NCBI GenBank assembly: GCA_030637455.1
Contig: DAOWGL010000086.1
Coordinates: forward strand, 1 to 21,930
Direction: 5' to 3'
Origin: Candidatus Nitrosopumilus sp.
Lineage (GTDB): Archaea; Thermoproteota; Nitrososphaeria; Nitrososphaerales; Nitrosopumilaceae
DNA: 21,930 bases
The notes under the pieces are model-generated. The model did not search any database. It was not told where the DNA came from and saw only the letters and a list, made by a program, of their open reading frames with translations. A program made the position numbers and the translations under genes. Positions 7,621-12,988 of the stretch are shown here, one piece after another (positions within the stretch are counted from its first letter, which is position 1; every line of letters begins with the position of its first letter).

Positions 7621-8949
7621 ATGGCGACTCAAATGACTTCCGCAAGACGTGGAGTGGCAACTGATGAGATGAAACAAGTTGCAAAAGATGAGGATGTTTC
7701 ACTTGAATGGCTAATCCCTAAAATTGCAAAGGGCTCAATAATTATTCCAAGCAATAACGTAAGACCACAAAAAATTCACAATGTTGGAATTGGTAAAGGT
7801 CTAAAAACTAAAGTTAATGTCAACATTGGAACTTCTACATTAAATGTAAACATTGAGGAAGAAGTAGAAAAAGCTAAAGTTGCAATAAAATATCATGCAG
7901 ATACTATCATGGACCTCAGTGATGGTGGCGATGTTAAAAAAATACGTCAAACATTAATGGACGCTGCACCAATTACTTTTGGAACTGTTCCAATTTACGA
8001 GGCTTACAACTATGGAGTTGAAGTCCACAAGAATCCTTTGAATTTAACTGAAGATGATTACATCAAAGCATTTGAAAATAATGCAAAAGATGGGGTTGAC
8101 TATACAACAGTTCACTGTGGAATCACAAAAGATATTGCTAAAAGAATTCTCAAAGTGCAACGATATGGTGGTGTTGTAAGTAAAGGTGGTACAATCACTG
8201 CTGCTTGGATGTTAAAACATGATAAAGAAAATCCATACATTACTCATTATGATTACATGATGGAAATTGCCAAAAAATATGATGTCACATTTAGCCTTGG
8301 AGATGCATTAAGCCCGGGGTCCGTTTTCGGAACACCTTAGGGAATGCAAGTTCAATAGATGATCAACATATCTAGATTAACAAAGCGTGCACATGAACAT
8401 GATATCCAAGTAATGGTAGAAGGTCCGGGCCACGTCCCATTAAATGAAGTTGCTGCAAATGTACGGTTGGCAAAATCTCTCATTGGAGATGTTCCATATT
8501 ATGTTCTAGGTCCATTGGTTACAGATATTGCATCTGGACATGATCATATTGCCAGTGCAATTGGTGCTGCAGTCTCTGCCAGTGAAGGTGTGGATCTTTT
8601 ATGTTATCTTACGCCTTCTGAACATTTAGCATTACCAAATGCAGATGAAGTAAAGGCTGGGTTAATTGCATATAGAATTGCAGCTCATGCAGGAGATCTT
8701 GTAAAAATTCGTGATAAAGTGATCAAATGGGATATGGAAATGACTGAAGCCAGACGTACATTAGATTGGGAGAAACAACTAGCACTATCTATTGATCCTG
8801 AAGCGGCTGCAAAAATTCATAGTCGAACGGGACAACATCCTGGCAATAACGTGCCTTGTACTATGTGTGGCGGTGCTTGTGTTTACATGATGTTGCCACA
8901 ACAGAAAAAATATGATAAAGAAAATAAAAATTTACAACAAGTTAAATAA
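7621..8949 (+). pseudogene. thiC: Phosphomethylpyrimidine synthase ThiC, interrupted by two in-frame TAG codons
   Basis: ThiC is a radical SAM enzyme that converts aminoimidazole ribotide to the thiamine pyrimidine. The gene is full length (442 codons plus stop) in one frame, but TAG codons at 8338-8340 and 8356-8358 split it into 7621-8340 (239 aa) and a piece that could restart at ATG 8359 (196 aa). Conserved ThiC blocks lie on both sides: GTVPIYEA, DYTTVHCGIT and TFSLGDAL before the break; EGPGHVPLNEV, YYVLGPLVTDIASGHDHI and the C-terminal cluster motif CTMCGGAC after it. Apart from codons 231-246 it looks fully functional, so this is a very recent pseudogene or a sequencing/assembly error. 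The 3' end overlaps the convergent Nudix gene by 18 bp. Confidence 0.9.
8311..8358 (+). other. Corrupted block inside thiC
   Basis: From AGC at 8311 to TAG at 8356, the frame reads SPGSVFGTP-stop-GMQVQ-stop. The ThiC family normally reads RPGS, then a D-A-x-D stretch, then Q and E residues. The spacing of the remaining matches (PGS, F, QVQ, then INI) is preserved, so there is no net insertion or deletion, only a cluster of substitutions. Confidence 0.8.
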
Positions 8950-12690: not shown

Positions 12691-12827
12691 TCCTCATTCT
12701 GAAATTTGAAGAACATTTTTCTTATTATTGATTATTTTTTGGTAATATCTCATACCTGTTTAGAAATTATATAATTATTGAATAAAACATGTAATAATTA
12801 TAATATATTCTTAAATATAATAATAAC

Positions 12828-12834: not shown

Positions 12835-12871
12835 ATACATGCAAAATCGTGTAAATTATAAAGAATAATTT

Positions 12872-12960
12872 GCGCGGCCCTGCGAAGAATACATGTTATC
12901 TACGCAAAAGCGTTGTGGGTGAGGAGAATGCTTTTCACTCTATACAGGGTCGCGCCTTTT
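12872..12960 (+). ncRNA. Structured RNA candidate, three-way junction
   Basis: A GC-rich island in an A/T-rich spacer. An 11-bp closing helix pairs 12872-12882 (GCGCGGCCCTG) with 12945-12955 (CAGGGTCGCGC). Inside are a hairpin 12902-12905/12910-12913 (ACGC, loop AAAA, GCGT) and a 10-bp hairpin 12917-12926/12931-12940 (GGGTGAGGAG, loop AATG, CTTTTCACTC). Four pairs are G-U on the plus strand (12877-12950, 12918-12939, 12923-12934, 12924-12933) and would be A-C mismatches on the minus strand, which supports plus-strand transcription. TTTT follows at 12957-12960. It is not a tRNA, 5S, SRP or RNase P RNA by size and motifs. The function is unknown. Confidence 0.65.
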
Positions 12961-12973
12961 ACCTCTCTGAACA

Positions 12974-12988
12974 ATTTTTCTGAAAAAT
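12974..12988. terminator. Possible bidirectional terminator between aroA and the RNA
   Basis: ATTTTT (12974-12979) and AAAAAT (12983-12988) form a 6-bp inverted repeat with T-runs in both directions, five bases beyond the aroA stop and downstream of the RNA. It could end both converging transcripts. The signal is weak because the region is AT-rich. Confidence 0.3.

Follow-up and report, generated by a model that had tools for sequence, protein, structure and literature searches.

A candidate small-RNA family of Nitrosopumilus and its relatives with a conserved, putatively leaderless nine-codon open reading frame

Ammonia-oxidising archaea count among the sea's most abundant cells and, to our knowledge, little is known about regulation at the RNA level in these organisms. 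A contig of Candidatus Nitrosopumilus sp. (DAOWGL010000086.1; "the window" is the whole analysed stretch of 21,930 nucleotides) raises the question of whether a folded element lying between two genes, which we take to be aroC and aroA, is an RNA in its own right and, if so, how it might work. The original prediction described it as a free-standing RNA of the plus strand, and this part of the description held; what had been missed was a TATA-like box, a leaderless nine-codon ORF and a multi-copy family. The span proposed for the RNA was correct for the fold (12872–12955) and too short for the transcript, which very probably includes 33 nt more upstream, from 12839. The elements of the locus are as follows:

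12811–12817 (+): TTAAATA, an archaeal TATA-like box and putative promoter, with its centre 25 nt upstream of the ATG
12839–12868 (+): leaderless nine-codon ORF ATGCAAAATCGTGTAAATTATAAAGAATAA (MQNRVNYKE*) with which the transcript is predicted to begin, its stop 3 nt before P1
12853–12871 (+): P0 hairpin of the predicted folds (12853–12859 with 12865–12871), mostly within the ORF and able to extend into the first bases of P1
12872–12955 (+): structured domain of 84 nt, a three-way junction closed by P1, supported by fold statistics and by alignments of relatives
12872–12882 paired with 12945–12955 (+): P1, 11 bp, with changes on both sides in 4 of 11 pairs (alignment A1)
12891–12900 (+): junction strand ACATGTTATC, highly conserved within the source genus and mostly unpaired, different in genus g41 (alignments)
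12902–12913 (+): P2 hairpin ACGC-AAAA-GCGT, 4 bp, varying in sequence among relatives with pairing mostly retained
12917–12940 (+): P3 hairpin, 10 bp (12917–12926 with 12931–12940, loop AATG), from the alignments
12957–12979 (+): T-rich 3' end (TTTT 12957–12960, TTTTT 12975–12979), a probable archaeal terminator

The fold was evaluated on both strands. For 12870–12962 (+) a free energy of −37.7 kcal/mol was calculated, versus a mean of −23.4 for the shuffled sequences (z −4.38; none of 200 dinucleotide shuffles was as good), and the opposite strand was weaker, with −30.9 kcal/mol and z −3.65. The plus strand is also supported by the free use of G-U pairs on it in relatives (for instance, in the column pair 56–77, GU 14, AU 8 and GC 8), so that the strand assigned in the original prediction, like its 84-nt three-way junction with three stems, was confirmed both by the energies and by the covariation described below. 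On the 3' side of P1, a mean of 52% T was observed across 20 nt in 139 copies. Three further readings of the domain were tried and rejected. An ORF starting from the AUG of the P3 loop is lacking that AUG in 2 of 30 relatives (L028, L032), and its frame stops in L030; readthrough of the stop codon into the domain would meet indels that alter or shift the sequence to be read in L026, L034 and L036; and a pairing of the P3 loop with the CAU of the junction is contradicted by loops that vary (L028, L032, L080 and others) with no matching change in the partner.

To which relatives does this fold extend? In a DNA search of 100 genomes, matches with E < 1e-16 were found in 33, the source genome included, all within the 60 genomes of the same genus, with 82–98% identity across almost all of the query (in G035, 90% over 60 nt). 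This form, which we call type A, is patchy, since 27 of those 60 genomes (the source genome being counted in the 60) gave no strong match, among them the complete genomes G006, G022 and G053. In an alignment of 30 of the 33 genomes with a strong match, own included, 98.8% of the cells pair and 6 of 25 pairs show changes on both sides, versus 1.5 ± 0.9 in shuffles (0 of 500 as high), while sliding the partners by 1–3 columns lowers the pairing to 32–60%; the compensatory changes that the original prediction had named as a check are thus present. Two of the four pairs of P2 changed on both sides, with 97.5% of cells paired, and P3 is paired in 99.0% of cells with no pair changed on both sides. 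At the level of the family, a covariance model built from type-A sequences (R1) matched 108 of 250 genomes and 5 of 22 genera, and at that of the order 69 of 300 genomes and 5 of 64 genera. By an exact-pattern search we obtained 40 records, 29 of which are titled Nitrosopumilus or Nitrosarchaeum and most of the others name the same wider group. One record titled Nitrososphaeraceae (L153) was not counted as an occurrence outside the family, because its DNA is up to 93.6% identical to a Nitrosarchaeum record.

Two weak R1 matches (L097, E 0.0026; L098, E 0.036) led to a second type, B, which keeps P1 with GCGCC and the T-rich end, as in type A. Its P2 is variable, its P3 has a GNAAU loop and its junction is rich in A, and a further inner stem, GCAGAAC/GUUCUGC, is added. 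When one type-B sequence was used as a DNA query, matches came from 130 of 250 genomes of the family, spread over 7 of 22 genera, and the type-B model (R2) matched 147 of 350 genomes of the order in 16 of 65 genera, all the matched genomes belonging to one family and each carrying 1–4 matches; two weak R2 matches (L235 and L236, E 0.12 and 0.29) were left out as chance. Type B also covaries, with changes on both sides in 7 of 29 pairs (0 of 500 shuffles as high). In addition, 35 divergent copies were examined, of which L233 belongs to g1 and the remaining 34 to 12 other genera. A third model (R3), made from 26 divergent and 4 type-B sequences and containing no type-A sequence, has compensated sequences at 16 of 22 pairs of its alignment, and it matched 150 of 329 genomes in 17 of 64 sampled genera, solely in one archaeal family, in a search so large that weak matches are lost to stricter filters.

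The best R3 match in the window is 12869–12968 (+), with 28.6 bits and E 8.6e-6, and this places the window RNA in the same family as the divergent and type-B copies. R3 matched the RNA on its own strand in 48 of 49 type-A sources, L088 being the exception. It scores the opposite strand of the window RNA too (20.4 bits), and 23 of its 71 matches in type-A sources lie on the opposite strand, with lower scores, because much of the R3 score comes from P1. The reverse test was weak: of 18 sources of type-B or divergent copies, R1 matched the RNA in 8, with E 0.004–0.8. Taken on the sequence evidence, the window RNA is a member of a new small-RNA family that, in the samples searched, is confined to one archaeal family (records titled Nitrosopumilus, Nitrosarchaeum and relatives). 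Viral carriers were sought with two exact patterns, and no contig was found. In the source genome itself (1.27 Mb), a pattern blind to structure (box, 19–22 nt, ATG, 24 nt, TAR) occurs in three places and in none of the reversed control: the window RNA, a type-B copy on contig C76 and the 5' half of another on C144, the 3' half of which appears to lie at an end of C68. The pattern was used for the source genome only, as many background matches are produced across 350 genomes.

Some observations on individual copies deserve mention. All 35 type-B copies have the string GNAAT in the P3 region, as do 26 of 32 divergent copies, and none of the 74 type-A copies has it; it is likely to be a docking or protein-binding loop of the type-B form. 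In genus g47, L253 and L262 (G286, C184, 10428–10522 and 10122–10214) are diverged tandem copies about 210 bases apart. Two type-B copies of G125 (C3, 211721–211825, and C6, 16421–16525) are identical over the stretch compared, by duplication or as an assembly repeat.

Outside the fold, the family is also marked by the ORF. In unselected tallies it is present in 82 of 85 type-A loci (84 distinct places, L064 and L112 being one) and in 34 of 35 divergent copies, 31 with nine codons and 3 with eight; the distinct type-B copies compiled have nine codons in 33 of 35 cases and eight in 2, with a peptide that differs from that of type A. Across the family the stop lies 3–5 nt before P1; in type A this distance is 3 or 4 nt and the start is ATG or GTG. 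The type-A exceptions are L110, cut by the contig end, L096, which is degenerate (45.5 bits with R1), and L109, whose stop codon is lost even though R1 gives it 86.8 bits, and which no longer shows P1 in its own best fold; in L233 (36.4 bits) the fold is degenerate and the ORF absent. The three copies devoid of the ORF (L096, L109, L233) offer a natural test of its role. In L104 and L113 there are eight codons, with the frame retained. Two further copies were left out: L193, of type B, which escaped the ORF pattern although its ORF is visible, and L195, which is cut by a contig end.

We compiled 148 ORF-bearing records (147 distinct places, L064 being L112; 106 distinct ORF sequences). Nine codons were found in 141 of them and eight in 7, with ATG as start in 139, GTG in 8 and TTG in 1, and with TAA as stop in 76, TGA in 42 and TAG in 30. 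Parsimony on a tree of 136 distinct nine-codon copies gave 5, 0 and 0 changes at the three positions of the start codon and 0, 9 and 10 at those of the stop codon, and 9–45 changes at each of 12 upstream and 3 linker positions. Since the 148 records and the 136 copies were selected for the presence of the ORF, the absence of non-stops is partly by construction, and the unselected tallies are the 82/85 and 34/35 given above. In codons 2–9 the same tree requires 298 changes, distributed over codon positions 1, 2 and 3 as 90, 125 and 83, with no excess at the third position, and the peptides fall into 20 clusters at less than 50% identity (for example, MRKDVNPIN, MSVEPRPMA, VHKDKSPFG and MAEKSRQMT). 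Start, frame, length and stop are retained while the codons change with no third-position excess; thus the ORF is kept and the peptide is free.

The same layout suggests where the transcript begins. The distance from the centre of the box to the start codon is 25–26 nt in 141 of 148 ORF-bearing records (the TTAAATA string is not present in L105, and L036 is too short to show the box), and the window copy has the arrangement of the family: TATA-like box, 25–26 nt, start, 8–9 codons, stop, and P1 within 3–5 nt. From the promoter spacing and the conservation of the ORF, transcription of the window RNA likely starts at 12839, and a start at the ATG or within 1–2 bases of it would make the RNA leaderless. 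Upstream of the TTAAATA box, an AT-rich block AATAATTATAATATATTC (about 12785–12818, +) is conserved in the source genus; its role could be that of an upstream promoter element for the RNA, or it may belong to the promoter of the divergent aroC. When the ORF was folded alone, P0 had z < −1 in 14 of 20 cluster representatives, namely in 13 of 13 from type B and divergent copies versus 1 of 7 from type A (window copy, −0.12). A strong P0 throughout the family was therefore rejected, given the single type-A representative below −1.

As for the neighbours, in genera g1, g31, g37 and g39 the RNA lies between a divergent aroC and a convergent aroA in most loci, with a different ORF next upstream of it in L012, L021, L062, L102 and L111. 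In g41, which has the same type of RNA, no match to the aromatic genes of the window was found in 20 of 20 loci (up to 3 kb on each side; upstream only in L094). Type-B copies lie near one gene, which is presumably PurP-like, or between another, which we take to be dehydrogenase-like, and a small gene in convergent orientation. In 7 of 8 type-B loci the ORF that follows is convergent, and G006_B1 has an adjoining same-strand ORF. Because the neighbours differ between genera, the RNA appears free-standing, as had been claimed, and the association with aromatic genes that had also been claimed proves incidental. Moreover, with no common downstream gene on the same strand, it is not an aroC leader, nor is it linked to the aromatic genes as an antisense regulator. 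In fact, the conserved downstream same-strand gene expected of a cis riboswitch or attenuator was not found, aroA being on the other strand and the neighbours changing in g41 and in type B, and a cis-antisense role for aroA or aroC finds no support in a predicted RNA that ends before the aroA stop (12993) and in a family that lies beside other genes elsewhere. We also tried to derive a function from the neighbours, and this was abandoned: aroC/aroA, the PurP-like and dehydrogenase-like genes and the small protein have no common theme.

In the original prediction the RNA was matched to no known family, and in Rfam 15 no match at the gathering threshold was found in the window. With relaxed thresholds, rli24 was the only family covering the RNA, on the other strand and with 13.9 bits versus a threshold of 100, and a snoRNA match of 12.6 versus 44 bits just touches its 3' end. 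In six type-B loci the sole sub-threshold hit was sR11 (in L157), lying away from the RNA, and no Rfam guide RNA family reached its threshold in the window or in these six loci. ARAGORN found no tRNA or tmRNA gene in the window. A literature search of partial coverage returned no title describing the RNA.

The comparison with known systems is instructive. tmRNA is a stable free-standing RNA with a short frame of about ten codons beside folded domains, and the window RNA resembles it in being free-standing and in having a short frame next to folded domains; however, its start codon is at the predicted 5' end, there is no conserved tag and, according to ARAGORN, no tRNA-like domain. In leader-peptide attenuators (trp, tnaC), translation of a short ORF decides the fold of the adjacent RNA, as may happen in the window RNA, but in the family there is no common regulated downstream gene (a convergent ORF follows in 7 of 8 type-B loci, and the convergent aroA in the aro loci), and no repeated regulatory codon was seen by eye in the 20 peptide clusters. 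The Downstream-peptide motif is a structured RNA tied to a short peptide ORF lying downstream; it shares with our family the combination of structured RNA and short ORF, whereas here the ORF lies upstream, is locked in length and shows no conservation of its peptide. This cyanobacterial motif (RF01704) is named in a table of PMC2864571. Tan1, an abundant 229-nt ncRNA of marine group II Euryarchaeota of which the function is not known, is likewise a marine archaeal ncRNA with a proposed conserved fold, but it has a different length, belongs to a different archaeal phylum and is described with no mention of a mini-ORF in the available excerpt of its source (PMC5069720). The nearest systems in their workings are the leader-peptide attenuators and tmRNA, and the defining features of each are absent here.

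How could an ORF that is kept for its length act on the fold that follows it? We propose, with a probability of roughly 0.4, that the RNA is a translation-gated structural switch, made of a leaderless minigene and of a folded domain acting in trans. A ribosome would load on the 5'-terminal AUG, and translation of the nine codons would melt the P0 hairpin; it would then terminate 3–5 nt before P1, where its leading edge should prevent the 5' arm of P1 from pairing. In an RNA that is free of ribosomes, or on which a ribosome is only initiating, P1 and the three-way junction would be closed. A fold model of 7 copies, in which the positions masked by the ribosome were assumed, is consistent with these states. 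In the free RNA the modelled probability of P1 is 0.82–0.99; masking nt 10–40, as for a ribosome with the stop codon in the A site, lowers it to 0–0.1 in 7 of 7 copies, a result that any ORF ending so near a helix would give in such a model; and masking nt 1–16, as in initiation, lowers P0 to 0–0.22 and leaves P1 at 0.95–1.0. Somewhat more tentatively, the family may represent a new class of trans-acting RNA in which an obligatory leaderless minigene of locked length serves as the sensor: translation of nine codons of any content, and not the peptide, would set the fold and read the availability of ribosomes or of the initiator. We know of no RNA kind that fits a strongly covarying, multi-copy RNA of many genera with an ORF kept for length and not for peptide. 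The family makes testable the idea that translation itself is a signal read by a free-standing RNA and, if this is true, these archaea would sense directly, at the level of RNA, how available ribosomes or the initiator are.

Other explanations were weighed against the translation-gated switch. The one that we place next, while still judging it unlikely, is that of an RNA on which a ribosome docks: the 5' AUG would hook the ribosome, the mini-ORF would be about the track of one ribosome, and the domain would act on that ribosome or sequester it, for instance in starvation. It would account for the leaderless start, for the kept length with a variable peptide and for the size of ORF plus linker, which, set against the known footprint of a ribosome, corresponds to about one; nevertheless, a stop codon and release would free the ribosome. 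Behind it, and also rather doubtful, comes a service of the ORF to the synthesis or stability of the RNA, in which a trailing ribosome would guard the 5' end of the growing transcript against archaeal termination or decay until folding of the domain is complete, the task of the domain being a separate one. That the ORF occupies the whole stretch from the predicted start site to P1 agrees with this explanation, as do the T-rich ends 3' of P1, but the 8–9 codons of distant genera would be left unexplained, unless the spacing between the 5' end and P1 is fixed otherwise.

A reading in which the ORF is not translated at all comes third, and we regard it as improbable: the ATG would be the initiator of transcription and the stop a by-product of the constraints on P0 and P1. 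The spatial constraint on start site, P0 and P1, the overlap of the type-A P0 arms with the stop and the high model score of L109 in spite of its missing stop could be explained in this way. By contrast, TAA, TGA and TAG replace each other at one place in the 82 of 85 loci and 34 of 35 divergent copies, with 19 changes at stop positions 2–3 by parsimony on copies selected for the ORF; the stop is retained in type B, though P0 there ends before it, and the eight-codon variants stay in frame. The last alternative, which we disfavour as very improbable, is a tiny mRNA with the nine-residue peptide as its product and the folded part as a stabilising 3' UTR. An ORF intact in nearly all the copies examined would be expected of such an mRNA, but not the 90/125/83 distribution with no third-position excess, nor 20 peptide clusters below 50% identity, nor a conserved part that coincides with the folded part.

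Two minor observations concern other genes of the window. The gene at 7621–8949 (+), which we take to be thiC-like, is seen as two ORFs (7621–8340 and 8359–8949), perhaps due to a frameshift or to an assembly error. On the minus strand, the ORF at 287–742, presumably encoding a ribosomal-protein-like, S24e-like product, ends in near-identical DAPAEEAKA repeats.
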